A DNA stretch of 64,000 bases from Paeniglutamicibacter kerguelensis (lineage in GTDB: Bacteria; Actinomycetota; Actinomycetes; Actinomycetales; Micrococcaceae): NCBI RefSeq assembly GCF_017876535.1, contig NZ_JAGIOF010000004.1:451525-515524 (forward strand), in the 5' to 3' direction. Positions 25,811 to 53,056 of the stretch are shown one piece after another. The translations under genes and the position numbers were made by a program. The notes under the pieces are model-generated. The model worked only from the letters and a program-made list of their open reading frames with translations. It had not been told where the DNA came from and searched no databases. The number at the start of each line of letters is the position of its first letter. Within the stretch, counting starts at the first letter, position 1.

Positions 25811-26422
25811 CTACTGCAGTGGAGAGAACTCCGCCGGTGCCAACCGCTTCACCAACGTGGAGAGCGGTGCCGGGCAATCGGCCGGCCGCGTGGCACCGGC
25901 CCCTGCGACAGCGACCGCCCGCGCACGGTGCTCCTCGTCCGGGTGCGCCCAGATCTGGACGATCCCGTTGGTCTGCCCGAACTCCAGGCGTCCGGCAAGC
26001 ACGAGCGAATCGTGCTTGCTGCGCTCCCGGATCGCTTTCGACCAGGCCTCGCCGGCGGCGCGAAGGTCGGCGACCTTGAAGTAGTCGTAGCGGATCTCAA
26101 AGACCGGTCCGACGGCTGCGGGGGCCGGTTCCTCGACGAAGTCGAACGGGATCACCAGCTCCACCATCATCCGGTCCACGAATTCGCCCGTCGCCGGCGG
26201 CCAGTTCGGGTGCCGGGCGGCGAGGGCGCGCCGCTCGGTGCGCTCGGCCTGGTCCCGGTAGGGCCACACGTGGATTACTTCGCTCTGCGGCTGGTCCGTG
26301 GTGCGCCAGAAGCCGGCCAGGGACGAGAATTCAGCACGGTCGACATACCCGGTGCCGAACCGCCGCTCGAACTCCGGCACATTCTCCGAATCCACCTGGT
26401 AGGAACGGATTTCGTAAATCAT
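25811..26422 (-). CDS. NIPSNAP-family protein, tandem ferredoxin-like barrel
   Basis: 203 residues. The first half starts MIYEIRSYQVDSENVPEFERRF and the second half repeats the pattern from PVFEIRYDYFKVADLRAAGEAW. Each half is a NIPSNAP-type alpha/beta-barrel unit. Function of the family in bacteria is poorly known; members often lie in catabolic operons. Start ATG at 26422 because GAAGGAAA precedes it by 7 nt. Last gene of the reductase-P450-amidase operon, just before the terminator. Confidence 0.82.
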   Translation of the reverse strand: MIYEIRSYQVDSENVPEFERRFGTGYVDRAEFSSLAGFWRTTDQPQSEVIHVWPYRDQAERTERRALAARHPNWPPATGEFVDRMMVELVIPFDFVEEPAPAAVGPVFEIRYDYFKVADLRAAGEAWSKAIRERSKHDSLVLAGRLEFGQTNGIVQIWAHPDEEHRARAVAVAGAGATRPADCPAPLSTLVKRLAPAEFSPLQ

Positions 26423-26487
26423 TGGCATTTCCTTCTCGTGTTGGTCGAACGGGTTCTCGGTGCCGGGGCGGCCTGTCCCCCGGAGGT

Positions 26488-26907
26488 TCAATTGCGCAGG
26501 CTCAGCAATCCGTCCAGCGCTGCTACGCCGGCGCCCGCGCATTCTTCGTCCTGCTCACCGGTGCCGCCGCCCACGCCACAGGCACCGACCAGGATGCCGT
26601 CGCAGAAGATCGGGACGGCGCCCTTGGCGTAGAAGATGTGCCCGCCCTCGGCCTGGGCGATGCCGGACATGATCGGCGAGGCGGCACGCTCTGCGAGCAG
26701 GCCGCTGGGCTTGGCGAAGCCGGCGGAGGTAATGGCCTTGCCCTGCGAGCCATAGCCGGCACCCCAGTGCCCGCCGTCCATTCGCCCGAAGGCGAGGAGC
26801 CGGCCGCCGGCATCACAGACCGAGACGCTGATCCTGATGTCCAATTCCGTGGCTTTGTCGATGGCGCTTGCAATGACGAGGTTTGCCTGTGCGAGGGTGA
26901 GTGTCAT
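26488..26907 (-). CDS. GlcG/HbpS-like heme-binding family protein
   Basis: 139 residues: a sensory-like fold starting LTLAQANLVIASAIDKATEL, with VSVCDAGGRLLAFGRMDG and a C-terminal GGHIFYAKGAVPIFCDGILVGACGVGGGTGEQDEECAGAGVAAL. This matches the GlcG/HbpS (PduO C-terminal-like) family. Some members bind heme or cobalamin, and many are orphan proteins in catabolic gene clusters. A role in handling heme for the P450 of the same operon is a guess. Confidence 0.85.
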   Translation of the reverse strand: MTLTLAQANLVIASAIDKATELDIRISVSVCDAGGRLLAFGRMDGGHWGAGYGSQGKAITSAGFAKPSGLLAERAASPIMSGIAQAEGGHIFYAKGAVPIFCDGILVGACGVGGGTGEQDEECAGAGVAALDGLLSLRN

Positions 26908-26959
26908 GACCTGTCTTTCGGGTGGTTTCGGAAAAAGGGTTTCTGAAGTCGCGGACGCG

Positions 26960-27277
26960 CTAGGGAATGGCCCGGAACATGGACAGCGAGGCGTTGGAGG
27001 TGTGCGGCCTGATCTTCGACGCCCAGTCGCCCTGTGAGGATGCGGCCTTCCATTCCGGGGTCTGCGGCAGGTCCGGGGAATCCACGCGATAGACCGTTGC
27101 GTAGCGCTGCACGCCCGCGTTGGGCCGTTCCAGGACGTAACGCTGGACGCCCAGGACGCCCGGGACCTTCGCGATGAATGGAACGTGCTCGTCGTTGTAG
27201 ATGCGGTTGAACTCGTCGTCGAGCTCCTCCGGGATATCAAGCTGGACGAGCCACATGTATTCGGTGTTTTCCTTCAC
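26960..27277 (-). CDS. Small dimeric alpha/beta-barrel protein (EthD-like)
   Basis: 105 residues, with WLVQLDIPEELDDEFNRIYNDEHVPFIAKVPGVLGVQRYVLE. The N-D-E-H near the start of helix one followed by a P-G-V-x-x-x-x-R-Y strand is the layout of EthD and related small dimeric barrels. EthD proteins are needed for some P450-driven oxidations (for example ethyl tert-butyl ether attack) though their chemistry is unclear, so its presence in a P450 operon is notable. Start taken as the GTG at 27277, about 9 nt after GAAAGG. Confidence 0.75.
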   Translation of the reverse strand: MKENTEYMWLVQLDIPEELDDEFNRIYNDEHVPFIAKVPGVLGVQRYVLERPNAGVQRYATVYRVDSPDLPQTPEWKAASSQGDWASKIRPHTSNASLSMFRAIP

Positions 27278-27487
27278 GTGCCTTACCTTTCGACGGCCGC
27301 CCTGGCCGCGGGGCAACACGTCCCGGCACTTCGGTGCAGGTCAGTGCCCCGCGTCGGCGGCATTCTTTATGGATCGCCCGTTGCTGGTTGCTCAACGGGC
27401 AAGGTCAAGGGGTGGTGCTCAAGAGGAAGTGTTCAATTGTTTGCGCTCTGGAGTGCACCCCGCGGTTGGCGCGGGTGCGGGAAGGGT

Positions 27488-29140
27488 TCAGGGCGAGCGG
27501 AGCGAGAACACGTTGGCCGGCGCTTCGGCGTACGCGTGGTCGCGCGGCATGCGGTCGGCCATCGCGAGGGCGTAAGGTGCGCCCTCCAACAGCTGTTCGA
27601 GCATCCGCCCGTCGAGATCCAGGCCGGCCCGGCCGACTGCCGCCAGGCACTCCCCCCGAAGCACCGGGTCGACGTCCCCCAGCGTTCCCGTCGACAACCG
27701 GGGTACTTCGACCGGCGGCGCAATGGCGCCGGCGACCAGTTCGGGATGCCGCAAGTGCCACCCCGTCGCCATCTGGTACGCGTGTCCGATGCGCAGGATC
27801 GTCGCTTCGCCGAATGGCCTGCCGAGGATCTGCATGCCCAGCGGCAGCCCGCCGGAACCGAAGCCGTTGGGCAGCGCGAGGACCGGCTGGCCGGTGACGT
27901 TGGCCGCGGTGAAGTGGTTGGAGTTCTTCCAGAAGGCCAGCGGGTCGTGCGCGGAGAAGGTCGGCGCCTCGCCCGAGCAGATGGTGATGAAGGCGTCGAA
28001 GCGACGGTACAGGGGTTGCATCTCGGCAATGGCCCGCTGGTGTTCGCGCCCGGCCCGGATGAGGTCGTTGGCCGTGAACAGCACGGCCGGCAGCATGCGG
28101 CCCAGGATGTCGTCGCCGAAGTGGTCGGGACGGGCGATCAGCTCACGCTGGTGCACATTGAGCACCTCGGTTTCGGCAATGATCGTCTTGATGTCGCCGT
28201 AGCTTTGCATCGGCCGTATCCGGCAGTCCTCCAGTGTGGCACCCAGCTCCTCAAGCACGCCGAGGGCTGCATCCATGGCCCGGCACTCATCCTTGCTTAC
28301 CGAGACCTCTTCCTCCCAGTTGTGACGCAGCACGCCGATCCGCAGACCGCGCAGGTCACCGGTCAAGGCGCCGACGTAGTCGGGAATCTCGCGGGCCACG
28401 CTGGCGGGGTCGGCAGGGTCGTGGCCGGCGATTGACTGGAGCAGGATCGCACAGTCCTCGGCGGTGCGCGCCATGGGGCCGCTGCGGTCGAAGGTGTGCG
28501 AATGGGGAATGACCCCGGAGCGGCCGACCAGCCCGGGGGTTGGCATCAGGCCGGTGATGCCGCAGCGGGATGCGGGCACACGGATCGAACCGCCGGTGTC
28601 GGTGCCGATGCTTGCCGGCACCATGCCCGCGGCGATCGCCGCCGCCGAACCGCTCGAGGAGCCTCCCGTGACGCGGGTCAGGTTCCAGGGGTTTCGCGGT
28701 GGCGGCCAGGGAAGGTCGAACGACGGTCCCCCATGGGCAAACTCGAAAAGAGCCAGCTTGCCCATCAGCAGCGCGCCGGCGTCCCGCAGCTTCCCCGTCA
28801 CCACGGCGTCCCGGTCCGGCACGTTGTCCGCCAGCACCCTTGAATGCCCGGTGGTCGGGATGCCCGCGGTGTTGAAACAATCCTTAAGCGCAAAGGGGAT
28901 CCCATGCAGTGGACCGCGGTAGCGGCCGGCGGCGATCTCGTCGGATGCCTTCCGCGCCCCGTCGAGCGCCTGCTCGAAGGTCCGGGTGACGTACGCCTGA
29001 ACCTGCACGTCGACGGCCTCGGCGCGGGCAACCAGCGCCTCGACATACTCGACCGGGGAGAGCCGGTGCGAACCGATAAGCTCCCCCGCTTGCGCCAGTG
29101 TCAGTTGGTGGAGCCCGGCGGTTTCAACGGCAGCGGTCAT
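27488..29140 (-). CDS. Amidase (amidase-signature family)
   Basis: 550 residues. The Ser-cis-Ser-Lys triad is readable: Lys86 in FALKDCFN, the GGSSSGSA glycine/serine loop (159-166), and nucleophile Ser185 in GTDTGGSIRVPA. Such enzymes hydrolyse amides, and some act on esters or carbamates. AAGGAG lies 8 nt before the ATG. Located after the P450 in the same direction, with 102 nt and a hairpin between them. Cellular location is cytosolic (no signal peptide). The substrate is unknown; in this operon it could release a carboxylic acid for the P450 or act on a downstream amide. Confidence 0.92.
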   Translation of the reverse strand: MTAAVETAGLHQLTLAQAGELIGSHRLSPVEYVEALVARAEAVDVQVQAYVTRTFEQALDGARKASDEIAAGRYRGPLHGIPFALKDCFNTAGIPTTGHSRVLADNVPDRDAVVTGKLRDAGALLMGKLALFEFAHGGPSFDLPWPPPRNPWNLTRVTGGSSSGSAAAIAAGMVPASIGTDTGGSIRVPASRCGITGLMPTPGLVGRSGVIPHSHTFDRSGPMARTAEDCAILLQSIAGHDPADPASVAREIPDYVGALTGDLRGLRIGVLRHNWEEEVSVSKDECRAMDAALGVLEELGATLEDCRIRPMQSYGDIKTIIAETEVLNVHQRELIARPDHFGDDILGRMLPAVLFTANDLIRAGREHQRAIAEMQPLYRRFDAFITICSGEAPTFSAHDPLAFWKNSNHFTAANVTGQPVLALPNGFGSGGLPLGMQILGRPFGEATILRIGHAYQMATGWHLRHPELVAGAIAPPVEVPRLSTGTLGDVDPVLRGECLAAVGRAGLDLDGRMLEQLLEGAPYALAMADRMPRDHAYAEAPANVFSLRSP

Positions 29141-29242: not shown

Positions 29243-30460
29243 CTAGGCGAGCGTCAGGCGCAGCGGCACGGACTTCAAGCCGCGCAGCGTGTTGTTGTGC
29301 TGGCGCCCGATCGGCGCGGCAAGCTCAATGCTCTTCACGCGCGGGATCAGCTTCTCCAGCAGGGACGCTGCCTGCAGGCGGGCCGCATGCTGGCCCACGC
29401 ACTGGTGCATTCCCATGCCGAAGGAGAGGTGGCCGGACGGGTCGCGTGTCAGGTCGAACTTGTCCGGGTTTTCCCAGCGGCGCGGGTCGCGGTTTGCCGC
29501 GGCGAAGCACAACATGACACGGCTTTCGGCGGGGATGGTGCTTCCGCCGAAGTTCACCTCCGCGGTGGTCTTGCGGAAGATCTGCTGGACCGGGGATTCC
29601 CAGCGCAGCGATTCGTCGAAGGCTACGCGGGCCAGGCCCGGGTTGGCGCGCAGGGCATCCCACTGTTCCGGGTGCGAGGCGAAGGCGTAGAGCATGCCGG
29701 AGATGCCGTAGACCGTGGTGTCGACGCCTGCGGAGAGCAGTGAACGGGTCAGCAGCGGCGCGTGTTCGTGCAGGATCTCGCCGCGGTCGGCGGCAGCCCA
29801 GATGTCCGCACCGAAGCCCACGGGCTTCAGCGAGTCACGCTGGCACTTAGCGGTGGCCCATTCCTGGTATTCGGCGGCCTTGCATTCGCCCTTCTTGACC
29901 AAATCGTTGGTCGGGCCCAGTGCGTTGAAGATGTGGTCGGCGTACGGAACCAGGTTCTCGCGGTCCGTCTCGTCGATGCCGGAGGCGTCCGGGAAGAAGT
30001 TCACCGGGAAGACCGAGCCGATCTGGCCGTGGCCGTCGATCTCGATCTGCTGGCCGGATGTGGTTCCCTGCAGGATCTCGTCGATCAGGGTTCCGGCACG
30101 TTCCAGGCAGTTGTCCTTCATGGCACGCAACGCACGCGAGGAGAGGATTTCCTGGAGCACCTCGCGCGGGGCGTCGTGCTCCGGCGGATCCATCTGCAGC
30201 AGGCCGCGGGCCCGCCACGGCTCGTTGAGTCCCACACCGGAACCGGAGGAAAGACCCTGCCAGTTGGCCACGGCGCTTGAGAGGTCCTCGTACCCGCCCA
30301 TGGCGTGGACGTTGTACTTGGAAAGGAATACCACCGGGCCGGCCTCGCGCATGCGCTTTTGGAACGGCACCGGGTTTTCAAGGATTTCCGGAGAGAACGG
30401 ATCATCGTCAAGGACGGGGATGGTCCCGTGGTTCACCGGGCATTGGGTGGGGGCAGTCAT
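29243..30460 (-). CDS. Cytochrome P450, CYP199-like
   Basis: 405 residues. Heme-ligand Cys354 in FGMGMHQCVGQ, ExxR motif E283-x-x-R286, and I-helix SAGVDTT (243-249). Many stretches match my memory of CYP199A enzymes closely: REAGPVVFLSKYNV, FPDASG, YADHIFNALGP, RSLLSAGVDTTV, ANRDPRRW and the NNTLRGLKSVPLRLT end. CYP199A enzymes hydroxylate or O-demethylate para-substituted benzoates and hold the carboxylate with an Arg in a PWR segment and with Arg-Ser before the I-helix. Here PWR (Arg83) and RS (239-240) are kept, while the Ser three residues after the PWR Arg is Gly. So an aromatic acid substrate is likely. AGGAG is 8 nt before the ATG, and the reductase gene is 11 nt upstream. Confidence 0.92.
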   Translation of the reverse strand: MTAPTQCPVNHGTIPVLDDDPFSPEILENPVPFQKRMREAGPVVFLSKYNVHAMGGYEDLSSAVANWQGLSSGSGVGLNEPWRARGLLQMDPPEHDAPREVLQEILSSRALRAMKDNCLERAGTLIDEILQGTTSGQQIEIDGHGQIGSVFPVNFFPDASGIDETDRENLVPYADHIFNALGPTNDLVKKGECKAAEYQEWATAKCQRDSLKPVGFGADIWAAADRGEILHEHAPLLTRSLLSAGVDTTVYGISGMLYAFASHPEQWDALRANPGLARVAFDESLRWESPVQQIFRKTTAEVNFGGSTIPAESRVMLCFAAANRDPRRWENPDKFDLTRDPSGHLSFGMGMHQCVGQHAARLQAASLLEKLIPRVKSIELAAPIGRQHNNTLRGLKSVPLRLTLA

Positions 30461-30471: not shown

Positions 30472-31488
30472 CTAAAGATCCAGGACGAGTTTGTCGGTGA
30501 TGGAACGCGAGACACAGACAAACATCCGGTCGTTCTTGGCGCGTTCGGCGTCGTTGAGCAGCGAGTCGCGGTGCTCGGGTGTGCCACGCAACACGGAGAC
30601 CTCGCAGGTTCCGCAGACACCCTCCATGCAGGAGGCAAGCACCGGAACACCGGCATTTCCCAGGGCCGAAAGGACTGTCTCATTGGTGCCGACCGTGACG
30701 CACTTCTTGGAACGGGTCAGTTCAAGCTCGAACGGTTCGGTGCGCACCGGTGGTGGCTGGGTGGCCGGCACGAAGCGCTCGAAGCGCACCGCCCACTTCG
30801 GCCACTCGGAGGCTGCCCCGGCCACGGCGTTGAGCAGCGGCTCCGGGCCGCAGCAGTACACGCGGCCGTTTTCGATCGGCTCGTTGAGGAAGGAAAGGTT
30901 CAGGTGGCCCAGCTCGTCCTGCGGCCAGACGGTGACGCGGTCACCGTACTGGGCCAGCTCGTCCAGGAAAGCCATCGAGACGCGACTGCGGCCGCCGTAG
31001 TGCAGGTGCCAGTCGATGCCCAGCTTCTCGGCCGCGGCGATCATCGTCATGATCGGGGTGATCCCGATGCCGCCGGCGATGAATTCGTATCGGGTGCCCT
31101 GGGTGAGCAGGAAGTTGTTGCGCGGGGTGCCCACGGTGATCATGTCCCCGACGGCCAGCACGTCGTGGATGTAGTGCGATCCTCCGCGTGAATTCGGTTC
31201 GCGCAGCACGGCGACCTCGTAGGCGTGTGCGTCCCAACGGTCCCCGCACAGCGAGTAGTGGCGCGAGAGCGCGCCCTGGTCCTCGGTGGGGAGCACCAGC
31301 TCGATGTGGGATCCGGGCGTCCAGTCGGGGACGCGGGCGTTGTTTGGTTCTTCGAGCCTCAGCCGCACGACACCGTCGGCGAGGACATCTTTCCGCGCCA
31401 CCCTCAAGGACTGGATTCCCGGGTGGCCGACAGCGGGTTTGGGGGTCGGCGAGGCATCGACCGGGAGCGAAGCGGCTGTAGTAGGCAT
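30472..31488 (-). CDS. Phthalate-dioxygenase-reductase-type flavin/2Fe-2S oxidoreductase
   Basis: 338 residues. Flavin-binding RHYSLCGDR (76-84), NAD-binding GGIGITP (139-145) and CCGPEPLL (212-219), and a C-terminal plant-type 2Fe-2S domain with Cys287, 292, 295 and 325 (C-x4-C-x2-C-x29-C), ending LVLDL. This FMN-NAD-FeS order is that of vanillate demethylase and phthalate dioxygenase reductases and of the P450RhF reductase domain. No separate ferredoxin gene is present, so this protein is the probable direct electron donor to the adjacent P450. First gene of the operon; a LysR-type palindrome lies 45 nt upstream. Start ATG at 31488, the first Met consistent with the family. Confidence 0.92.
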   Translation of the reverse strand: MPTTAASLPVDASPTPKPAVGHPGIQSLRVARKDVLADGVVRLRLEEPNNARVPDWTPGSHIELVLPTEDQGALSRHYSLCGDRWDAHAYEVAVLREPNSRGGSHYIHDVLAVGDMITVGTPRNNFLLTQGTRYEFIAGGIGITPIMTMIAAAEKLGIDWHLHYGGRSRVSMAFLDELAQYGDRVTVWPQDELGHLNLSFLNEPIENGRVYCCGPEPLLNAVAGAASEWPKWAVRFERFVPATQPPPVRTEPFELELTRSKKCVTVGTNETVLSALGNAGVPVLASCMEGVCGTCEVSVLRGTPEHRDSLLNDAERAKNDRMFVCVSRSITDKLVLDL

Positions 31489-31536
31489 GCTTCGATCATG
31501 CGTGCTGGCGGGTGCTGTAAGCAATCTCACATGGCT

Positions 31537-31549
31537 TATCGAGGTGATA
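31537..31549. promoter_or_regulatory. LysR-type operator candidate, site 1 (TATC-N5-GATA)
   Basis: TATC-GAGGT-GATA, a T-N11-A dyad as used by LysR regulators, 49 nt before the start of the reductase-P450 operon. The same element (TATC-GAGGC-GATA) occurs at 47571-47583 in another promoter region of the cluster; 12 of 13 bases and the following AGCC are identical. Confidence 0.6.
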
Positions 31550-31602
31550 GCCGCGTTGCAGCGGACGGTTGCTTGACAGCGAACTGCGGCTGTTTTCATC
31601 AC

Positions 31603-31647
31603 AAAAAAGCATCCCCACGTGCCGCAAGCTGCGGTACGTGGGGATGC
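31603..31647 (-). terminator. Intrinsic terminator of the first binding-protein gene
   Basis: On the minus strand: arms GCATCCCCACGT and ACGTGGGGATGC extended by an inner CCGCA/TGCGG stem, then TTTTTT. It lies 190 bp after the stop of the binding-protein gene at 31838. Confidence 0.9.
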
Positions 31648-31837
31648 TGTTCCTGCTTGGGTGACGGCAAGGGCGCCGCCGAATGTGAACTGGCGCATGG
31701 GGGCGTTGCGGGCCGGTCGCCTCCCGGGGAACTCGTCCCGGTCTCAGGCGGCTAATCCCCACCGTCCCCCACCGAGCCACGCCAATGGCTTACCCGGGGC
31801 AGGACGGCGAACCATTCGGTGCGTTTTGCGTTCCCGC

Positions 31838-32959
31838 TTAGGCGCGCGCGAATTCGGGGACGAGCTGCGCGTAGGTGATATCGCCCTTCTTGACGCTGCC
31901 GAAACGCAGCGCGAGTTCGGCCATCTTATCCACGGTTTCCTCCGTCGCCTTGAACATCGGGTTCAGTTTCGGCTGCACGTCGGCAACATAGTGCTCCACG
32001 TACTCCGTGGCAATCTCCAGCCCCTTGCCGCCAAGCCCGTTGTCGTTGAGCAGCTTGGCCGCAGCTTCCTTGTTCTCGCCGATCCACCAGTTGGCGGCGT
32101 CCTGCGCCGCCAACCAGTTCTGCACAACCTCCGGCTGCTGCTGTGCCATCTCTTCACGCACGGCAATGGCCACAACCGCCTGGTTGCGCAGCAGGTCCGG
32201 CGCACTGGCTTCGGCGAAGTCCAGCAGGATCGTCCCGCCGGTTTCCTTGCTGATAAACCGCGTTGCCGTCCACTGGACACCGACATAGGCGTCGATGCGC
32301 TTGGCCTTGATGTTCGGGATGGCCTGGGCGGTGGGGCCCACGGCAAGCACCGTGACGTCGCCGGGCTTCATGCCCGCCAGTTCGAGGGCCAACCGCAGCT
32401 GCAGGTCGCCACCGGCTCCAACGGCCGTGACGCCGATCTTCTTGCCCTTCAACGAGTGCATCTTCTCCTCGAAGCTTGCATCCGCAGCCGGCCACTGACT
32501 GTCCGGGCCGCCAATGATCCCGTAGGTGGAATCCAGGTTACGGAAACCAACCAGCACCGGGCGCTTGCCCTTGGAGCTGTTGGCGTGGGTTGCCATCAAC
32601 AGCCCCGTGTCGGAGGCATAGCCGTCAACGGCACCGGCAACGAGCAGCTGGAACGCCTGGACGCCGCTTTGTGGGGTGATGTGCTTGGCAACCTCGAGCT
32701 GGTGCTGCGCGTAGAACTTGTTTTCCAGGTTGATGGTGTCAAGGAAGTACGCATCGCCCGGGAACGCCGCAGCGTTGAACTTGCGCATGGCACCGGTCGC
32801 TGCGGGTGCCGCGTTGCTCCCGCAGGCCGCCAGCAATGGCGCCGCGCCAATGGCTGCAGCACCAAGTCCCGCAAACCTCAATATCGATCGGCGCGAGACT
32901 CCGTTGTCCAATGCCCGCAGACCTCCAAGAGGCGACCCGCCATTCTGTGACTCAAACAT
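31838..32959 (-). CDS. ABC transporter substrate-binding lipoprotein (SsuA/NitT/TauT type), copy 1
   Basis: 373 residues. A twin-arginine signal (SRRSILRFAG) leads to a lipobox LLAAC, so it should be exported folded by Tat and anchored as a lipoprotein. The mature part resembles NMT1/SsuA binding proteins: KIGVTAVGAGGDLQLRLALELAG, IKAKRIDAYVGVQWTA, EEMAQQQPEVVQNWLAAQ. Such proteins bind sulfonates, nitrate, taurine or aromatic acids. The permease (45716-46567) and ATPase (47796-48680) of the cluster are the probable partners. Same length as copy 2 (35753-36874) and nearly identical to it, without gaps. Monocistronic, with its own terminator. Confidence 0.9.
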   Translation of the reverse strand: MFESQNGGSPLGGLRALDNGVSRRSILRFAGLGAAAIGAAPLLAACGSNAAPAATGAMRKFNAAAFPGDAYFLDTINLENKFYAQHQLEVAKHITPQSGVQAFQLLVAGAVDGYASDTGLLMATHANSSKGKRPVLVGFRNLDSTYGIIGGPDSQWPAADASFEEKMHSLKGKKIGVTAVGAGGDLQLRLALELAGMKPGDVTVLAVGPTAQAIPNIKAKRIDAYVGVQWTATRFISKETGGTILLDFAEASAPDLLRNQAVVAIAVREEMAQQQPEVVQNWLAAQDAANWWIGENKEAAAKLLNDNGLGGKGLEIATEYVEHYVADVQPKLNPMFKATEETVDKMAELALRFGSVKKGDITYAQLVPEFARA

Positions 32960-38186: not shown

Positions 38187-38188
38187 TT

Positions 38189-39574: not shown

Positions 39575-39584
39575 GATGCTCTCC

Positions 39585-43375: not shown

Positions 43376-43772
43376 CTGGGGGCACCTCACTGAACGTTGG
43401 ATCGGACGGCAAGAACTCGCGCCCGGTGTGACTTCAGTCTCCTGAGTCAAGCCAATTCTGGGAAGCATTCTGGCGCTGGCACGGTGATATGCCTGAGCTA
43501 TCGGAGGCCTTTATCGCCGGCATTTTTCCGGCCCTGCATGCAGCGAAAACGCGAATCGTACCCTTCAGCGGGACACTTTTCGAACCCCGGCTGCCACCCT
43601 CGAACCGCCCTTTTCGCCGCCTTGGTCCACCCCTGCCCGGGTCGCCCGCACGCCGCAGGAATGCGGAATGCCCGGCAGTTTCCTGCCGGGCATTCGTGGG
43701 TTGCTCGTTGCCGGGGGCCGGGCCCGCCTGGGCCTTCTCGAGCCGTCAAGACGTTCGTATCGAGGCTGGCCC
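43376..43772. other. Intergenic region between the ligase operon and the LysR gene
   Basis: 397 bp. It holds the ligase promoter side with a GATA-N9-TATC element at 43486-43502 and a hairpin at 43666-43695 that ends the LysR transcript. No gene is supported. Confidence 0.55.
43666..43695. terminator. Stem-loop downstream of the LysR gene
   Basis: GAATGCCCGGCAG and CTGCCGGGCATTC pair perfectly around TTTC. It lies 78 bp after the LysR stop. No U-run follows, so its strength is uncertain. Confidence 0.6.
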
Positions 43773-44675: not shown

Positions 44676-44774
44676 GGCATTTTCTCCTCTTGTCTCTCGT
44701 GGCCCATGGCCACCGGAGGCCAATGTTACCCCGCTCACAACTTTGCGGCCGAAACCGGAGGACTCGTTGGCGTA

Positions 44775-45622: not shown

Positions 45623-45640
45623 GGGGTTCCTCTCGTTGCA

Positions 45641-45684
45641 CGAAACCGGCCGGGGACGCATTGAATGTGCCCCGGCCGGTTTCG
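45641..45684. terminator. 15-bp stem-loop downstream of the ABC permease
   Basis: CGAAACCGGCCGGGG and CCCCGGCCGGTTTCG are exact complements with a 14-nt loop, 31 bp after the permease stop on the minus strand. Only a short U-stretch (TTTCG) follows. Confidence 0.65.
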
Positions 45685-45715
45685 TTCGGACCATTGTTTT
45701 TGAATCGTTAGCGAA

Positions 45716-46567: not shown

Positions 46568-46608
46568 GTCAAACCTTTCCCTTACGGTATTCGGTGGTGC
46601 TGGATGAA

Positions 46609-47442
46609 TTAGGCGTCGCGCGGAGCTCGGACGAGCTTCGAGTCCAGGGGCGACGAGGTGTGCGGTCCACCGGTGACCTGCAGTACGGTTCCGGTGATGA
46701 AGCTGGAGGCGCCCGAGCACAGGTACAGGCAGGCGTCGGCGACTTCCTCCGGCAGGCCCACGCGGCCGAGGGCCAGGAACTCGCCGAAGGACTTCTCGAC
46801 CTCTTCCGAGGCGAAACGCGAGGACGGCGTCAGGGTGGCGCCGGGCTCGACGCAGTTGGCGCGCACGCCGCGGTCGGCCCATTCCCAGGACATGGTCTTC
46901 GTCAGCGAGGCAAGCCCCGCCTTGGCGGCGGCGTAGGCGCCGCGCATCGGGTGGGCGTAGTTCGCCGAGCCCGAGCCGACGTTGACGATGTTGCCGCCGC
47001 CCTGTTTCTCGAAGACCGGGAGGCAGGCGACCGCCGTGTGGAACGCACCGGTGAGGTTGGTGCCGATCGTCGCGTTCCACGCATTTGCGGAGAGGTCCTC
47101 CAGGCGTGCGGCGAAGTTGCCGCCGGCGTTGTTGATCAGGATGTCGATGCGGCCGAATTCCTCGAGGGCGGCGCGGACCAGCTTGTCGGCGGTTTCCGGT
47201 TCCTTGATGTTGCCGGTGACCACCACGGCCTTGCGTCCGAGCGCACGGATCTGCTCGGCCTTGGCTTCCAGCGTCTCGGCCTTGCGGCCGTGCAGGACCA
47301 GGTCCGCGCCGGCTGCGGCGAACTTGTCGGCGAGCGCCTGTCCGATGCCACCGGATGCGCCCGTCACGATGACGACCTGGCTGGTGAAATCGAATGTGGT
47401 CTGGCCAACCTTCTTGCTGGCGGTGATGGCTGTGTTCGTCAT
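46609..47442 (-). CDS. Short-chain dehydrogenase/reductase (classical)
   Basis: 277 residues. TGASGGIG cofactor motif at about residues 27-34, NNAGG, the catalytic Ser in VGSGSANY, the YAAAK Tyr-Lys pair, and the SDR end GTVLQVTGG. After the second strand LHGRKAETL has Arg and Lys, which favours NADP. First gene of the SDR-permease-SDR-LysR unit, and it reads away from the ATPase operon. The shared upstream region holds the palindrome at 47571-47583. Confidence 0.88.
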   Translation of the reverse strand: MTNTAITASKKVGQTTFDFTSQVVIVTGASGGIGQALADKFAAAGADLVLHGRKAETLEAKAEQIRALGRKAVVVTGNIKEPETADKLVRAALEEFGRIDILINNAGGNFAARLEDLSANAWNATIGTNLTGAFHTAVACLPVFEKQGGGNIVNVGSGSANYAHPMRGAYAAAKAGLASLTKTMSWEWADRGVRANCVEPGATLTPSSRFASEEVEKSFGEFLALGRVGLPEEVADACLYLCSGASSFITGTVLQVTGGPHTSSPLDSKLVRAPRDA

Positions 47443-47795
47443 CTGACGTCCTCCTGAATTGATGCGCGCCCGGTGTGTGCGGCTGACTCACGCACGGCGG
47501 GCCCTCATGGCAATGGTGCGTTTTGAGAAAGCTTCCTTCCATTCGGGCCCGGGGGCAATGAACTAATCGCTATCGAGGCGATAGCCCCGGATCGGCCGAC
47601 TTTTTCTTGACTCTGTCGCCAAGGTGTTCAACGATTCATGGACAGGTTGGTGACGTGCACCACAACTCAAACCACCCCGGTTTCCTCTTGTTCAAGGCTG
47701 TTCCAGCGTGACCAATGACGGTGCCGGCTCAGCAATCGTGAACCACAGCAGACTGCCAAACGGGTCGGCCCCGCAAACTAATGACTGGAGCGACA
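47443..47795. other. Divergent promoter region of the catabolic cluster
   Basis: 353 bp between the minus-strand SDR operon and the plus-strand ATPase-BVMO operon. It contains the 17-bp palindrome GCTATC-GAGGC-GATAGC at 47569-47585. No protein-coding content is supported. Confidence 0.6.
47569..47585. promoter_or_regulatory. LysR-type operator candidate, site 2 (17-bp palindrome)
   Basis: GCTATC-GAGGC-GATAGC; the core TATC-N5-GATA is a T-N11-A dyad. It lies 127 nt before the SDR operon and 211 nt before the ATPase operon, so one site could serve both. It matches site 1 at 31537-31549. Confidence 0.65.
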
Positions 47796-48680
47796 ATGCC
47801 CAATACAACCCTCCGCTCAAACGGCGATAGCGACACTCTTGCAACGGAATCGACGGCCAAGCCGTCCACAGCCAGCGGGGTCTCGGTCGAGTTCGAGAAC
47901 GTGAACCACAGCTTCCTCCATGGCGATCGGCCGGTGCGGGTGTTGGACAACTTCAATCTCCGCATCGAGCCTTCGGAGTTCGTCAGCATTGTCGGCCCGT
48001 CCGGCTGCGGCAAGACGACGGCCCTTGGCATGGTCGGCAACCTCCTGAAGCCACGCGCGGGCAAGGTCCTGATCGACGGCAAGCCGGTGCGTCCCGGAAG
48101 CAACGACGCCGCCTTCCTCTTCGCCCGCGACGCACTACTCCCCTGGCGCCGTGTCCGCAGCAACGTGGAACTCGGCATGGAGATCCGCGGGGTGCCCAAG
48201 GAAGAGCGCCGTGTGCGCGCCGAGGAATGGTTGCGCAAGGTCCGCCTGCACGAGTTTGCCGATTCCGACGTCCTGCACCTCTCGCAGGGCATGCGCCAGC
48301 GCGTGGCCATCGCACGCACTCTGGTGCAGAACCCCAAGGTCTTGCTGATGGACGAACCGTTCGCGGCCCTCGACGCACAGACCCGTGCGATCCAGCAGGA
48401 GGAGTTCACCGGCCTGTGGGAGGCCGAGCGTCCCACCGTCATCTTCGTGACACACGATTTGGAGGAAGCCATCCTGCTGAGCGACCGTGTGATTCTGATG
48501 GCCAGCCGCCCAGGGCGCATGGTCGTCGACATGAAGATCGAGCTCGAGCGCCCGCGACGCCAGGAAATGCGCCGGGATTCCGACCTCTTCAAGTCCTATT
48601 TCCACGACATGTCCGATCGGCTTCGCAGCGAAGTCGATCTCGCCGAACAGCGCATCCGGGAGGAGAGCAAGAATGGCTAA
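47796..48680 (+). CDS. ABC transporter ATPase (SsuB/TauB type)
   Basis: 294 residues. Walker A GPSGCGKTT, the LSQGMRQRVAIARTL signature and Walker B VLLMDEPFAALDA with a D-loop and the H-loop VTHDLEEAILLSDRV. The start region is Ser/Thr-rich. The ATG at 47796 is chosen because GGAG lies 6 nt upstream. Energises the importer formed with the permease at 45716-46567. It is the first gene of the plus-strand operon and overlaps the hydrolase gene by 8 nt. Confidence 0.93.
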   Translation: MPNTTLRSNGDSDTLATESTAKPSTASGVSVEFENVNHSFLHGDRPVRVLDNFNLRIEPSEFVSIVGPSGCGKTTALGMVGNLLKPRAGKVLIDGKPVRPGSNDAAFLFARDALLPWRRVRSNVELGMEIRGVPKEERRVRAEEWLRKVRLHEFADSDVLHLSQGMRQRVAIARTLVQNPKVLLMDEPFAALDAQTRAIQQEEFTGLWEAERPTVIFVTHDLEEAILLSDRVILMASRPGRMVVDMKIELERPRRQEMRRDSDLFKSYFHDMSDRLRSEVDLAEQRIREESKNG

Positions 48681-49485
48681 GACCCTGCAAAAAGTTGCCG
48701 GCGCCGAGGGCGCCACCGTCGCCTACCGCCAGTACGGCCAAGGCCCGCGCCTGATCACCGTCCTGCACTCGCTGGCGCTGGACGGGTCCTGGTACGAACC
48801 CCTGGCCGAGGCGCTCGGTGAAGAATACCGACTGCTCGCGCCGGACTTCCGCGGCCACGGGGAAACCGCGCGCGGTGAAACCGCCCCCACACTGGGCCTC
48901 GTTGCCCGCGACATCGCCGCCATGTGGGACGCTGAAAATGTCGAGAGCTCGGTCACCCTGGGAATCTCGCTGGGCGGCATGGTCGCCCAGGCCCTCACCG
49001 GTAGCTTCCCCGAGCGCGTCGACGCACAGATCCTGATGGCAACGCGGGGCGCTTACGACGAGGCGGCAGCCCGCGGCACCTTGGCCCGAGCAGCCGAGGT
49101 CCGGGTCCCGAACGGGCTCGAGGACGTCGAAGACGTGACCATGCACCGCTGGTTCGGCGAGAACTCGACCGATGCATCCAACCCCATGGTCCAGCAGGCC
49201 CGCGCACAGTTCCTCGGGGCCGGCGGCAACACGATCGCCGAGTACTTCGAGGCCATGACCCTGGTCGGCGACTTCCAGCTGGACTCGCCGCCGCCAACCC
49301 TCGTCGTCGGCGGCGACGACGACCGAAGCATCCCCCGCCCGGTCGTCGAGCAGCTTGCCGCCTCGATCGCCGGCGCAGAGCTGCTCTTCGCCAAGGGCGG
49401 ACACCTCGTCGCCTTCGAGAACCCCCAGGAGGTCGCCGTAACCGTGCGGCCCTTCCTCGACAGCCTTGATTGCTGGACACGCTAA
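48673..49485 (+). CDS. Alpha/beta hydrolase (PcaD/esterase-like)
   Basis: 270 residues with LHSLALDGSWYEPL (oxyanion region), RLLAPDFRGHGETAR, nucleophile Ser in TLGISLGGMVAQAL, acid VVGGDDDRSIPRP and His in KGGHLVAFENPQEV. Type of enol-lactone hydrolases and small esterases. Directly precedes the Baeyer-Villiger monooxygenase, so hydrolysis of the ester or lactone it makes is the natural guess. Overlaps the ATPase gene, so translation is coupled. Confidence 0.88.
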   Translation: MAKTLQKVAGAEGATVAYRQYGQGPRLITVLHSLALDGSWYEPLAEALGEEYRLLAPDFRGHGETARGETAPTLGLVARDIAAMWDAENVESSVTLGISLGGMVAQALTGSFPERVDAQILMATRGAYDEAAARGTLARAAEVRVPNGLEDVEDVTMHRWFGENSTDASNPMVQQARAQFLGAGGNTIAEYFEAMTLVGDFQLDSPPPTLVVGGDDDRSIPRPVVEQLAASIAGAELLFAKGGHLVAFENPQEVAVTVRPFLDSLDCWTR

Positions 49486-49534: not shown

Positions 49535-51448
49535 ATGAACAAGACCCTGGATCGCACCACGACGCAGGTCAGCGAAGAAGAACTTGCCGCCCACCTTGAG
49601 TCGGCCCAGGTCCCCGCGCTGATCATGCTGACAGCCCACGTCACCGGCGACGCCAGCGTGCTGCGCGACGACTGGCGCCCGAACCTCCGGGCCCTGCCGA
49701 GCAGCGGCCTGGATGCGGAAACCGAGGCGGCGGCGCGCGCCCGCTGCTTCGAGCTGCTGGCACCGTTCCTGCCGACCCAGAACACCTGGGACTCCGTACC
49801 CAGCGAGGAACTCCGCCTGGCCATGAGCACCTGGCTGATGGGCGCGCCCGTCGAGGACGCCCTGGCCATGTCCGAGGTCGCGTTCATCCCGAACAACACC
49901 GACCCGCGCCAGCCCGAGTGGAAGCTCGACGAGATTGCCCCGGACACCGCCCTGAACGCCGTCGTCATCGGCGCCGGGTTCTCCGGACTGCTCGCCGGCC
50001 TGCGCCTGAAGCAGGCGGGCGTGCCGTTCAAGATCATCGAGAAGAGCCACGACGTCGGCGGCACCTGGTGGGAAAACACCTACCCCGACTGCCGCACAGA
50101 CGTGCGCAGCCACATCTACACCTACTCCTTCACCCAGCACGACTGGGAGACGCACTTCGGGCGCCAGGACAAGATCCACGGCTACCTGCACCAGTTCGCC
50201 GCCGACAACGGGCTGCTCGAGCACATGGTCTACGGCACCGAGGTCACCGCAACCCGCTGGAACGAGGACACCAACAGCTGGACGCTGGAAACCAAGACCG
50301 CGCAGGGCGTCGGGGAAACCATCGAAGCCACGGTCGTGGTCAGTGCCGTGGGCCAGCTCAACCGCCCCTCGATCCCGAACTTGGAAGGCATCGACTCCTT
50401 CAAGGGCCCCATCGTGCACTCCGCGCAGTGGGACCACAGCATCGACTTCACCGGCAAGAAGGTCGTCGTCGTCGGCACCGGCGCCAGCGCCCTGCAATTC
50501 GCGCCGGCAGTGGCGAAGGTCGCCGAACAGGTCACCATCTTCCAGCGCAGCGCCCCGTGGCTGCGTTCCACCCCGGTGCTCCGCCAGGAGATCGCGGACG
50601 GCGAGCGCTGGCTGCTGAACAACCTGAACCAGTACCGCGCCTACTACCGCTTCTCGATCTTCCTGCCCCGCGTCGTCGGCAACCTGCCGGCCGCCACCGT
50701 CGATCCGAGCTTCCCGCCGACCGAGGTATCGGTCTCCGCGGCCAACGAGGCGCTGCGCAAGGAGCTCACCGAGTACCTGCTGGAGCAGGCGGGCGACGAC
50801 GCCGAGCTGGCCAAGCAGATCATCCCGAACTACCCGCCGGCCGCCAAGCGCATCATCTGCGACGACGGCACCTGGGTCAAGACCCTCAAGCGCGAGAACG
50901 TGCGCCTGGTGTCGCAGGGCGTGAACCGCATCGACGAGACCGGCGTGTGGCTCGGCGACGAGCACATCGAGGCCGACGTGATCTTGCTGGGCACCGGCTT
51001 CAAGGCCTCCGACTTCCTGCTTCCCATGTCCGTTGCGGGCATCGGCGGCAAGGACCTGCACGAGACCTGGGGCATCGACGCCAGCGCTTACCTGGGCTCC
51101 ACACTTCCGGGCTTCCCGAACTTCTTCTGCATGTACGGGCCGAACACCAACACCGTCATCCACGGCAACCTGGTGTTCTTCCTGGAGTGCCAGGCCGTCT
51201 ACATGATCGATGCGATCAAGACCCTGGCGACCGGCGGCTACAAGTCGATGAACCTGCGCGACGACGTATTCGCCGAGTACGACAAGGAAATCGTGGCCGA
51301 AAGCGCCAAGCGCACCTGGGGCTGGTCCAAGACCCACTCCTGGTACATGAACGCCGAGGGCCGCTCCACCATCATGTGGCCGTTGCCGGCCCGCAACTAC
51401 TTCGAGCGCACCACCCAGGTCCGCACCGAAGACTACAAGCTCGGCTAA
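49535..51448 (+). CDS. Baeyer-Villiger monooxygenase, 4-hydroxyacetophenone-monooxygenase-like
   Basis: 637 residues. FAD Rossmann GAGFSG at 146-151, BVMO fingerprint FKGPIVHSAQWD (F-x-G-x3-H-x3-W-D) at 289-300, and NADPH Rossmann GTGASA at 314-319. The roughly 140-residue N-terminal extension before the first Rossmann motif is the mark of the HAPMO subgroup (640 residues). HAPMO turns aryl ketones into phenyl esters. It inserts one oxygen next to a ketone using NADPH and O2. Flanked by two hydrolases and an SDR in a single operon. Substrate could be an aryl ketone or a cyclic ketone. Confidence 0.92.
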   Translation: MNKTLDRTTTQVSEEELAAHLESAQVPALIMLTAHVTGDASVLRDDWRPNLRALPSSGLDAETEAAARARCFELLAPFLPTQNTWDSVPSEELRLAMSTWLMGAPVEDALAMSEVAFIPNNTDPRQPEWKLDEIAPDTALNAVVIGAGFSGLLAGLRLKQAGVPFKIIEKSHDVGGTWWENTYPDCRTDVRSHIYTYSFTQHDWETHFGRQDKIHGYLHQFAADNGLLEHMVYGTEVTATRWNEDTNSWTLETKTAQGVGETIEATVVVSAVGQLNRPSIPNLEGIDSFKGPIVHSAQWDHSIDFTGKKVVVVGTGASALQFAPAVAKVAEQVTIFQRSAPWLRSTPVLRQEIADGERWLLNNLNQYRAYYRFSIFLPRVVGNLPAATVDPSFPPTEVSVSAANEALRKELTEYLLEQAGDDAELAKQIIPNYPPAAKRIICDDGTWVKTLKRENVRLVSQGVNRIDETGVWLGDEHIEADVILLGTGFKASDFLLPMSVAGIGGKDLHETWGIDASAYLGSTLPGFPNFFCMYGPNTNTVIHGNLVFFLECQAVYMIDAIKTLATGGYKSMNLRDDVFAEYDKEIVAESAKRTWGWSKTHSWYMNAEGRSTIMWPLPARNYFERTTQVRTEDYKLG

Positions 51449-51455
51449 TCCCGCC

Positions 51456-52361
51456 ATGACTTCCACCATTCGATCCACTTCAACGGAGGCCACCTTGCTC
51501 ACCGAGACACCCCTGATCACCGAGACGACCGACGTCGTCGCCAACCTTGAAACCCGCTACCTGTCCGGCGGCCCGACCGACGGGGTTCCCGTCGTTGTGT
51601 TCCTGCACGACGGCGCCTGGGGTGGCGCTTCGGATGTGACCTGGGGTGACATGCTGCCGCTGGCCGCCGAGAAGTTCCGTGTGATCGCACCGGACCTGCT
51701 CGGCTACGGCGGGTCAGCCAAGTCGATCCGGTTGGACGTCTCGCCCTTCGCATTCCGCCTGACCCACCTGTTCTCGCTGCTGGACCACCTGGGAATCACC
51801 GAACCGGTGCACCTGGTCGGCAACTCCTTCGGCGGTTCGCTGACCCTGCGCGCACTGACAAACCCGGCGCTGCGCGAGCGGATCGCCTCGGTGACCACCA
51901 TCGCCGGCACCGGCGGTGCCTGGCGGGGGGCCGACCTGGCCAAGATCGGCGACTTCGACGGCACTCCCGAGCGCATGGAAGAAATCGTCGGCTACCTGTG
52001 CGAGCCCTTCGACAACAAGGACGCCCAGCTCGAGGCCCGCATGCGGTGGGCTGTCGCACCGGGGCACTTCGCGTCCATGAAGGCCCCGCACACCGCGGTG
52101 CCCGGGGCCATGGCGGTCCAGCGTCCGGCGGACCCGTACCCGGGCAACCTGGCAGGGGTCACCACCCCGGCCCTGCTGATCGAGGGCAAGGACGACACCC
52201 TGTTCGAAAGCGGCTGGAGCGCCAAGCTGCAGGAATTCCTGCCGCAGGCCAAGGCCGAGGTCATGGATTCCAAGCACAGCCCGAACATCAGCCAGCCAAC
52301 GCAGACCTGGGAACTCATCAATGGGTTCCTGGCAGAGATCACGAAGGGTGACAACGCATGA
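51456..52361 (+). CDS. Alpha/beta hydrolase (meta-cleavage-product-hydrolase-like)
   Basis: 301 residues. Oxyanion segment FLHDGAWGGASD, nucleophile Ser in LVGNSFGGSLTLRAL, acid in LLIEGKDDTLFE and a His in DSKHSPNISQP. The G-N-S-F-G-G motif is common in C-C hydrolases such as BphD/MhpC and in related esterases. The first 13 residues are Ser/Thr-rich and may not be translated: a TTG at 51495 has GGAGG 5 nt upstream and would start the protein at LTETPLITE. It follows the monooxygenase by 7 nt and overlaps the SDR gene by 4 nt. Confidence 0.87.
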   Translation: MTSTIRSTSTEATLLTETPLITETTDVVANLETRYLSGGPTDGVPVVVFLHDGAWGGASDVTWGDMLPLAAEKFRVIAPDLLGYGGSAKSIRLDVSPFAFRLTHLFSLLDHLGITEPVHLVGNSFGGSLTLRALTNPALRERIASVTTIAGTGGAWRGADLAKIGDFDGTPERMEEIVGYLCEPFDNKDAQLEARMRWAVAPGHFASMKAPHTAVPGAMAVQRPADPYPGNLAGVTTPALLIEGKDDTLFESGWSAKLQEFLPQAKAEVMDSKHSPNISQPTQTWELINGFLAEITKGDNA

Positions 52362-53056
52362 GCGCGCCGGCACTGGTTATTTCGGGCGGTTCCTCGGGAA
52401 TCGGCGAGGGCCTGGTCAATGACCTGCGCAATGACTGGGATGTCACCTCGGTCTCCCGCTCCCTGCCGAGCAACCCGCTGGACGGGGTCAACTACGTAGC
52501 GGGCGACGTCGCCGGAAACGCACCGGAGGCCGTGCGCGAGTCGCTGGCTGCACAGGGCCGCACCAGCGTCCACTCGCTGATCCACTGTGCCGGTGTTGGC
52601 CTGTTCGGCAAGTTCCTGGATACCTCCAAGGCCGACTGGGAGCGCGCGCTGCTGCTGAACCTGCACGGCACGCTGAACTTCATCCAGGGAACCGCCGACC
52701 TGGTGGAGGACGGCGGACGCATCGTGCTGTACTCCTCGGGCACCGTGTTCAAGGCTCCGGGTGGCACTGCCGCCTACGCCGCGTCCAAGGCCGGCATCAT
52801 CGGTTTTGCCCGTAGCTTCGCCGTGGAGATGGGCGAACGCAACATCACCGTCAACGTGATCGCCCCCGGGCTGGTCATGACGCCGCTGGCCGCCAAGCTC
52901 GCCGGTGGCGAGGCCAAGAATATCGAGACCCGCGCCATCAAGCGCGCCTCGGTGGTCGAGGACTACGTGGGGCCGACCCGCTTCTTCCTCTCGGAGGGCG
53001 CAGGGTTTGTCACCGGACAGACGCTGGTCGTCGACGGCGGCTCGATCCGCCGCTGA
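52358..53056 (+). CDS. Short-chain dehydrogenase/reductase
   Basis: 232 residues, one of the shorter SDRs. SGGSSGIGEGL cofactor motif, LIHCAGVG, Ser in LYSSGTVFKAPG and YAASK Tyr-Lys, ending TGQTLVVDGGS. Translationally coupled to the hydrolase (ATGA). Last gene of the plus operon, followed by a terminator. It probably oxidises an alcohol or reduces a ketone within the pathway. Confidence 0.88.
   Translation: MSAPALVISGGSSGIGEGLVNDLRNDWDVTSVSRSLPSNPLDGVNYVAGDVAGNAPEAVRESLAAQGRTSVHSLIHCAGVGLFGKFLDTSKADWERALLLNLHGTLNFIQGTADLVEDGGRIVLYSSGTVFKAPGGTAAYAASKAGIIGFARSFAVEMGERNITVNVIAPGLVMTPLAAKLAGGEAKNIETRAIKRASVVEDYVGPTRFFLSEGAGFVTGQTLVVDGGSIRR

Follow-up and report, generated by a model that had tools for sequence, protein, structure and literature searches.

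The 64,000-nucleotide stretch of Paeniglutamicibacter kerguelensis analysed here (contig NZ_JAGIOF010000004.1, positions 451,525 to 515,524), hereafter the window, contains at 25.8–53.1 kb an island of catabolic genes that very probably constitutes one LysR-controlled regulon. Its gene content, operon structure, co-distribution, shared dyad and the family membership of a kinase/acyl-CoA dehydrogenase (ACAD) pair can be read from the sequence. As to function, we lean slightly towards a scheme that leads from an alicyclic acid, via ring opening with a Baeyer-Villiger monooxygenase (BVMO), to a 4-hydroxyacyl-CoA. Such a conserved, co-regulated set provides a short gene list to test and a strong chemical constraint, the 4-hydroxyacyl-CoA, and knowing the substrate would place several enzymes in a pathway.

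Gene content, distribution and candidate operator of the island

Pfam and NCBIfam scans recovered every enzyme class that a preliminary description had listed for this region. On the uptake and P450 side, these are a NitT/SsuA-type ATP-binding cassette (ABC) importer with two substrate-binding proteins (SBP1 and SBP2), a permease and an ATPase, a cytochrome P450 with a phthalate dioxygenase reductase (PDR)-type reductase, and a LysR regulator. Further matches comprise an amidase, a type I BVMO, two alpha/beta hydrolases, three short-chain dehydrogenases/reductases (SDRs), a medium-chain dehydrogenase/reductase (MDR) family reductase, an ADP-forming acyl-CoA ligase, a biotin carboxylase (BC) with a carboxyltransferase (CT), and an APH kinase with an ACAD. 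As also described earlier, no ring-cleavage dioxygenase appears among the matches listed for the genes scanned at 25.8–53.1 kb.

Read 5' to 3' on the minus strand, a first block contains SDRc, the permease, SDRa and LysR. The ligase operon follows with the ADP-forming ligase, CT, BC, a 75-aa biotin carrier, the MDR reductase, SBP2, the APH-type kinase and the ACAD. Its genes are separated by few-base gaps or overlaps, except for 71 bp before SBP2 and an overlap of the CT and BC open reading frames (ORFs), which reflects a BC start called too early. After this operon lie SBP1, the PDR-type reductase, P450, amidase, EthD-like, HbpS-like and NIPSNAP genes. The divergent plus-strand operon encodes the ABC ATPase, hydrolase 1, the BVMO, hydrolase 2 and SDRb. 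Several gene models were corrected. The carboxylase is made complete by the 75-aa biotin carrier (37965–38192, EAMKM). The 608-aa ORF at 45716–47542 is over-long, its N-terminal half overlapping a 277-aa SDR in another frame (46609–47442), and the permease is probably only its C-terminal part (45716–46567). Additionally, a small, previously overlooked EthD-like gene with a weak match (26960–27319) lies between HbpS and the amidase; the equivalent position of G151 is occupied by a 105-aa ORF without a match. The features are as follows.

25811..26542, minus strand: NIPSNAP-domain protein, accessory (Pfam NIPSNAP 74.5 bits; probable start ~26422; orthologues in G141, G151 and Saccharopolyspora)
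26488..27240, minus strand: HbpS/GlcG-like protein, accessory (Pfam HbpS-like 97 bits; probable start ~26907; also in G141, G151 and G549)
26960..27319, minus strand: EthD-domain-like small protein, accessory (Pfam EthD E 0.00037, 22 bits, equal to the gathering score; probable GTG start ~27277)
27488..29140, minus strand: amidase-signature amidase, accessory (Pfam Amidase 324 bits; orthologues in G141, G151 and, at 72%, Saccharopolyspora)
29243..30460, minus strand: cytochrome P450, sister clade to PbdA/CYP199A (PDB 9g9q 466 bits, CYP199A2 365 bits)
30472..31698, minus strand: PDR-type reductase with C-terminal 2Fe-2S domain, P450 partner (Pfam Fer2 and NAD_binding_1; probable start ~31488, partly from relatives)
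31535..31551, no strand: degenerate LysR-type dyad before the reductase-P450 operon (3 mismatches in 14 specified positions)
31838..32959, minus strand: substrate-binding lipoprotein SBP1, paralogue of SBP2 (Pfam NMT1_2; 87% identity to SBP2)
33417..34670, minus strand: ACAD of the ACAD10/11-LvaC type (human ACAD11 441 bits; HCMR motif)
34671..35756, minus strand: APH-fold kinase of the LvaA/ACAD10/11 type (ACAD11 chain 168 bits; HGDFRLDN)
35753..36874, minus strand: substrate-binding lipoprotein SBP2, NitT/SsuA/ThiY importer class (Pfam; model pLDDT 83; Foldseek Thi5, ThiY, SsuA)
36946..37962, minus strand: MDR reductase, PIG3 quinone reductase-like (TIGR02824 241 bits, below the cut-off of 296.8)
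37965..38192, minus strand: biotin carboxyl carrier protein, 75 aa (EAMKM motif)
38189..39628, minus strand: BC (Pfam Biotin_carb_N, CPSase_L_D2 and Biotin_carb_C; true start probably downstream, ORF overlaps CT)
39585..41159, minus strand: CT, distinct from propionyl-CoA carboxylase beta chains (Pfam Carboxyl_trans 324 bits; alignments)
41162..43468, minus strand: ADP-forming acyl-CoA ligase, fused chains, 768 aa (Pfam ATP-grasp_5, CoA_binding_2 and Succ_CoA_lig)
43773..44738, minus strand: LysR-type regulator (Pfam HTH_1 and LysR_substrate; in 13/13 island genomes)
44813..45694, minus strand: SDRa (Pfam adh_short_C2 157 bits)
45716..46567, minus strand: ABC permease (BPD_transp_1 at residues 430–607 of the 608-aa ORF; separate genes of ~280–310 aa in relatives)
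46609..47442, minus strand: SDRc (Pfam adh_short_C2 196 bits; conserved in 13/13)
47569..47585, no strand: LysR-type dyad GCTATCGAGGCGATAGC in the SDRc/ATPase divergent promoter (0–2 mismatches in 13/13 genomes)
47781..48680, plus strand: ABC ATPase (Pfam ABC_tran)
48673..49485, plus strand: hydrolase 1, enol-lactonase-like (TIGR02427 pcaD 133 bits, below the cut-off of 255.9)
49535..51448, plus strand: type I BVMO with N-terminal extension (steroid and phenylacetone monooxygenase matches; FKGPIVHSAQW fingerprint)
51456..52361, plus strand: hydrolase 2, alpha/beta fold (Pfam Abhydrolase_6 and Abhydrolase_1)
52358..53056, plus strand: SDRb (Pfam adh_short_C2 125 bits)

A further 12 genomes, from at least five genera, carry the island, complete or up to the limit of the available stretch, and neither their annotation nor the open-licence full-text literature searched gives a substrate for these homologous clusters. 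Among 197 Micrococcaceae genomes, CT (E 1e-100) and the BVMO (E 1e-150) occur in the same seven. The kinase is found in these seven, with weaker relatives (40–51%) in three more, and the P450 (E 1e-100) in 17, namely the same seven, G023 and nine at 42–53%. In G023, the reductase and a P450 at 70% stand alone beside a Cons_hypoth698 gene (15107–17392 of L090), and no CT, BVMO or strong kinase match was found in that genome. Core gene order is kept in 6/6 other Micrococcaceae genomes, the exception being the P450 pair of G094, which lies about 10 kb away. Within the class, the BVMO at E 1e-170 is found in 4 of 394 genomes, the window's own counted. G549, from another family, carries a divergent island with most genes at 50–69%. 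Two genomes with a 46% BVMO have no island in the stretches examined, one of which reaches only 3 kb past the BVMO on one side.

Named genomes, one per species, were further scanned with two CT peptide motifs, which returned 37 loci. All ten loci with a CT identity of at least 75% have the island as far as the stretch reaches, and none of the 27 at 58% or less has it, several of these contigs being short. The named carriers were found via CT, and islands without CT would escape that scan. They are Arthrobacter cavernae, Arthrobacter sp. C2, MYb213, MYb227, A. hankyongi and Pseudarthrobacter siccitolerans, together with Glutamicibacter soli, Rhodococcus koreensis, Saccharopolyspora shandongensis and Terrabacter sp. 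Ter38; Arthrobacter sp. C2 is a lignin-degrading isolate (PMC9327799). L027 was taken to be the same as G156, L029 as G181, L030 as G151, L032 as G094 and L033 as G051, and each pair was counted once. The islands of L026, L028, L031 and L034 extend past the available stretch, and absences there were left out of the counts.

Recurring in this way, the island behaves as one evolutionary unit. The accessory genes are the amidase (in 4/13 genomes, as far as each stretch reaches) and those for the EthD-like, HbpS and NIPSNAP proteins, which leaves a conserved core shorter than the 27 kb described earlier; the P450/reductase and the kinase are replaceable. Inter-genome distances correlate among CT, BC, ligase, BVMO, LysR and SDRc (r 0.87–0.96), part of this being shared ancestry in a comparison without a core-gene control; for the kinase, MDR reductase, P450 and reductase, the correlation with the rest is lower (r 0.48–0.90). 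In a concatenated tree, MYb227, from the window's genus, groups with Glutamicibacter with a support of 1.0, which points to horizontal transfer. In several relatives, the gene for the binding protein, ACAD, P450 or BVMO occurs in a second copy, which suggests that congeners of one substrate are handled. Among them is Arthrobacter sp. MYb227 (G094), where 6082–14081 of L092 contains another, partial cluster, with the BVMO at 70%, the binding protein at 66%, the ACAD at 78% and the P450 at 67%. At the Saccharopolyspora island end, an ORF with an IS200-like transposase domain lies between NIPSNAP and SDRb (L101, 5925–6731).

Between SDRc and the ATPase lies a 17-bp dyad, GCTATCG-N3-CGATAGC, which is found with 0–2 mismatches in 13/13 genomes, the spacer not being conserved. 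In the window, the match at 47569–47585 is perfect and exceeds chance, as five Markov-shuffled 64-kb sequences gave 0, 0, 0, 1 and 0 sites with at most two mismatches. LysR sites have the form T-N11-A. The TATCG-N3-CGATA core fits this form, a LysR gene is present, and binding is predicted. A weaker dyad near the start of the reductase-P450 operon has 1–4 mismatches in 11/11 genomes covering the region, eight of them with at most three, and Terrabacter, without this operon, has a 1-mismatch dyad before its binding protein. In random 350-bp pieces of the same stretches, real sites counted in, at most three mismatches occur in ~3% and at most four in ~15%.

Two observations speak against a single regulon. 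Taken in the window alone, the second dyad (31535–31551) is not beyond chance, with four sites of at most three mismatches vs one or two in the shuffles, and no comparable dyad was found upstream of the window's ligase operon. Of the shared operator-like sites proposed earlier, the central dyad holds, while the second is unremarkable in the window and becomes credible because it recurs at the same place in relatives. Collectively, co-distribution, operon structure and the shared dyad bear out the earlier view of one regulon-like island with its LysR. A GATA-N9-TATC half-site arrangement recurs upstream of the ligase operon in G156, G141, G181, G051 and L031.

The kinase/ACAD pair and the P450 pocket

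The ACAD matches human ACAD11 (2wbi) with 441 bits vs 158 bits for the best ordinary ACAD, and the kinase matches the ACAD11 chain with 168 bits and two bacterial chains with 186–190 bits. The special residues of ACAD10/11 and LvaC are an upstream Arg and HCMR (PMC12440821). Correspondingly, RLGPGRIHHCMR (the R-x4-R-x2-HCMR hallmark) and ADGPDEVH are present in 12/12 island ACADs, as is an Asp at the catalytic place, a position of our own assignment. The kinase motif HGDFRLDN (HGDxxxxN, with the catalytic Asp and Asn) occurs in 11/11 island kinases, with the ACAD gene adjacent. By these hallmarks, the pair is assigned to the ACAD10/11-LvaA/LvaC family, and the pathway should therefore pass through a 4-hydroxyacyl-CoA. 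ACAD10-dependent phosphorylation was reported for 4-hydroxyhexanoate and not for 5- or 6-hydroxyhexanoate, and bacterial orthologues are able to replace ACAD10 domains (PMC11342911). Mammalian ACAD10/11 and the Pseudomonas putida lva operon share with the island the neighbouring kinase and ACAD and the diagnostic residues (PMC11342911, PMC12440821); what sets the island apart is an ADP-forming ligase, a P450, a BVMO and a carboxylase next to the pair. On a Tsukamurella plasmid, the ACAD, kinase and nearby genes are matched at 79% inside a beta-oxidation cluster, and the matching stretch contains no island.

The P450 is 54% identical to the benzoate O-demethylase PbdA (structure 9G9Q; PMC11530827) and 45% identical to CYP199A2. 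Like the PbdAB system of Rhodococcus jostii RHA1 (PMC11530827), the window thus has a CYP199A-family P450, with an adjacent reductase gene. The window enzyme keeps Arg84, Arg236 and Ser237 of PbdA; in contrast, Ser87 is replaced by Gly, the loop is shorter by six residues, Phe176 and Phe291 are replaced, and the gene lies within an island of about 20 genes. The pocket was compared across 12 distinct island-type P450s, 11 by alignment and that of G549 by eye, with numbering mapped from the alignment. The loop is six residues shorter than that of PbdA in 12/12. In the carboxylate clamp, Ser87 is Gly in 12/12, Arg84 is kept in 11/12 and Ser237 in 12/12; in the aromatic pocket, Phe176 is Leu, Ala or Gly and Phe291 is Ile, Leu or Met in 12/12. 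Neither the full Arg84/Ser87/Ser237 clamp nor the Phe176/Phe291 pocket of CYP199A is thus retained by the island P450s. In PbdA, substitution of Arg84, Ser87 or Ser237 lowers the affinity for p-methoxybenzoate (PMC11530827). Because Arg84 and Ser237 are kept while the loop, Ser87 and the Phe residues are changed, the ligand is still likely to be a carboxylate, bound in a pocket that is larger or has another shape. The P450 called CYP199-like earlier is accordingly a sister of PbdA/CYP199A with an altered pocket.

Candidate route and competing explanations

In the alicyclic scheme, the imported substrate is most probably an alicyclic carboxylic acid, which the ABC importer would take up. The P450, whose family binds carboxylate and oxidises the opposite position, would hydroxylate the ring, an SDR would convert the hydroxyl to a ketone, and the BVMO would insert oxygen into it. 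Opening of the lactone or ester by an alpha/beta hydrolase could then yield a hydroxy acid, of which the ADP-forming ligase would make the CoA ester. Finally, the kinase would phosphorylate the 4-hydroxyacyl-CoA and the ACAD eliminate the phosphate, giving an enoyl-CoA for beta-oxidation, which further SDRs and possibly the neighbouring thiolase/MaoC/SDR operon may serve. As an example, 4-oxocyclohexanecarboxylate is an intermediate of aerobic cyclohexanecarboxylate breakdown (PMC9795900). Reasoning from established chemistry, its Baeyer-Villiger oxidation and lactone opening would give 2-(2-hydroxyethyl)glutarate, with the hydroxyl on carbon 4 from the former ring carboxylate, as the kinase/ACAD pair needs. 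Jasmonate-type cyclopentanone acids would likewise lead to a 4-hydroxy acid, and cyclohexanecarboxylate itself is a rather improbable substrate. The aerobic aromatisation of cyclohexanecarboxylate (chc, PMC9795900) shares with this scheme P450 hydroxylation opposite the carboxylate and dehydrogenation to 4-oxocyclohexanecarboxylate. However, it uses desaturases to reach 4-hydroxybenzoate, whereas the island has a BVMO and a lactonase-like hydrolase, and no candidate for the two desaturases is found among the island Pfam matches.

The type I BVMO fingerprint is FxGxxxHxxxW. It is present in 13/13 island BVMOs, and two among 120 listed BVMO homologues are fused to an alpha/beta hydrolase (P0039, P0042), which supports a BVMO step followed by a hydrolase step. 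Hydrolase 1 is closest to the enol-lactonase PcaD, below the cut-off. For SBP2, Foldseek returned Thi5, ThiY, SsuA and nitrate and bicarbonate binders at 12–19% identity; a substrate assignment from the modelled fold was dropped, as these matches give no ligand hint. The SBP family has few members (65 of 7,998 candidates scored reach E 1e-30 or better), and most of those with names come from island-carrying genera, which makes ligand screening a direct approach to the substrate.

No cluster with this gene content was found in open-licence full-text literature, including that on abscisate and jasmonate, some searches being aimed at single enzymes or carrier species; within this scope, the full set matches no described pathway, as stated earlier. 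Tentatively, this may be an undescribed aerobic pathway of soil actinobacteria that joins alicyclic-acid opening to a 4-hydroxy acid by P450, SDR and Baeyer-Villiger steps, a bacterial ACAD11/kinase rescue into beta-oxidation and an as yet unassigned kind of CT with an NWMNAL core that carboxylates one intermediate. If true, it would join Baeyer-Villiger ring opening with kinase/ACAD removal of a 4-hydroxyl, enzymologies known apart, and give a function to a CT kind also found in proteobacterial catabolic plasmids.

An aromatic side-chain route is an unlikely alternative in which the P450 would hydroxylate a p-alkyl or p-acyl benzoate, an SDR would form the aryl ketone and a BVMO related to 4-hydroxyacetophenone monooxygenase (HAPMO) the aryl ester, whose hydrolysis to 4-hydroxybenzoate would lead out of the island toward protocatechuate. 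The similarity of the P450 to PbdA, also a p-ethylbenzoate hydroxylase, agrees with this route; clamp Ser87 and both pocket Phe residues are lost, however, in 12/12 distinct P450s. Several BVMO homologues are named HAPMO by their sources, and to this extent the earlier label of HAPMO-like stands, but the fingerprint is that of type I BVMOs generally. The route would also leave the ligase, the carboxylase and the 4-hydroxyacyl-CoA kinase/ACAD pair without a task. As it needs, a protein like the 4-hydroxybenzoate hydroxylase PobA is found in 9/11 island genomes (one match above the curated cut-off, eight below it at 387–475 bits), whereas Terrabacter has no match and G549 only a 20-bit fragment; these two carry the most divergent islands and might use another substrate. 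The P450 pocket residues and the missing PobA in two genomes weakened 4-hydroxybenzoate as an end product. Collectively, the ACAD10/11-type pair, the altered P450 pocket and the lack of a PobA match in 2/11 genomes favour the alicyclic or lactone-type route suggested earlier over aromatic ring cleavage. The Hpe acetovanillone pathway of Rhodococcus rhodochrous GD02 likewise has a kinase, a three-part biotin carboxylase and a CoA ligase in one cluster, and the strain also has a separate acetophenone BVMO/esterase pair (PMC9618137). However, Hpe uses a CreHI-type two-part kinase, a NagD-type phosphatase and an AMP-forming ligase (PMC9618137), whereas the island kinase belongs to a different family, and no Pfam match to an HpeHI-type kinase, a NagD-type phosphatase or an AMP-forming ligase is found among the island genes. 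A Hpe-like carboxylation of a phosphorylated aryl ketone was therefore dropped. Neither Rhodococcus rhodochrous nor Aromatoleum is represented among the loci of the two-motif CT scan, which covered one genome per species; this is only a soft negative.

Decidedly improbable is a levulinate-like acyclic route, in which the P450 and BVMO would first trim the substrate, ligase, kinase and ACAD would then lead from a 4-oxo or 4-hydroxy acid to acetyl-CoA plus propionyl-CoA, with the carboxylase acting as a propionyl-CoA carboxylase (PCC). The LvaA/LvaC type of the pair is in its favour, as are PCC beta chains as the nearest PDB entries of CT (301 bits), compared with ~160 bits or less for bacterial geranyl- and methylcrotonyl-CoA enzymes and 173 for a mitochondrial one. 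BC, biotin carrier and CT subunits are all present. Nevertheless, CT departs from PCC beta at the core stretch, which reads GKIINWMNAL or GKVINWMNAL in the island vs RHGAKLLYAY/RRGAKLIFAY in two PCC beta chains. In PCC, the core Gly-Gly pairs have an oxyanion role; in the island CTs these pairs are Gly-Ser and Gly-Gln, as they are in plasmid relatives from Cupriavidus/Variovorax (53–57%), which carry GRVMNWMNAL at the same core stretch. Moreover, methylmalonyl-CoA mutase (PF01642) is unmatched in 7/7 Micrococcaceae island genomes, though present in 4/4 other island genomes tested, which makes a propionyl-CoA route unlikely at least in Micrococcaceae and set back the PCC reading of the carboxylase. 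The idea that GKIINWM marks the entire CT family was dropped because the four plasmid relatives compared carry GRVMNWMNAL. GKIINWM was also one of the two search patterns, so its presence among the 37 loci is partly by construction; G549, found via the BVMO, carries it independently. The plasmid CTs (L094, L095, L096 and L097) adjoin CoA transferases, tricarboxylate-type binding proteins and a second CT 32–34% similar. The surroundings of the distant CTs (MR_MLE enzymes, tricarboxylate-type transporters, CoA transferases and a second CT) point to no common substrate.

A mosaic of independent catabolic units, merely co-located and answering to different inducers, would accord with the lesser co-variation of kinase, MDR reductase, P450 and reductase (r 0.48–0.90), the P450-reductase pair alone in G023, the optional amidase block and the weak second dyad, but is very improbable given a core gene set constant in 13 genomes of several families and a dyad at the same two places.

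Besides the frequent PobA-like proteins, the following weigh against the alicyclic scheme. Terrabacter and G549 have the ACAD in the island without a kinase, and the only candidate partner is a 54–55% relative encoded elsewhere in the genome. Furthermore, in Terrabacter the CYP199-like pair is replaced by a P450 resembling CYP105 and a Pyr_redox_2 reductase (L035, 14373–17108); with the P450 exchangeable in this way, what it implies about the substrate may not hold for the islands in general. Among the matches listed, none of the 20 island proteins scanned reaches an NCBIfam cut-off, so each island reaction is deduced from its superfamily. The carboxylase is without a place in the scheme.

Neighbouring genes

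Adjoining the island, the window encodes an ACAD, an enoyl-CoA hydratase, an SDR, a MaoC hydratase and a thiolase at 20040–25710, and 6/6 other Micrococcaceae stretches likewise have orthologues of the thiolase and MaoC genes close to the island. The window ends at the contig end. To the right of the island lie ClpC and lysyl-tRNA synthetase, and the surroundings therefore look chromosomal. At 58000–64000, G+C drops from ~65% to 56–58% toward the contig end; LysS and an M13 peptidase are encoded there, adjoining ClpC.

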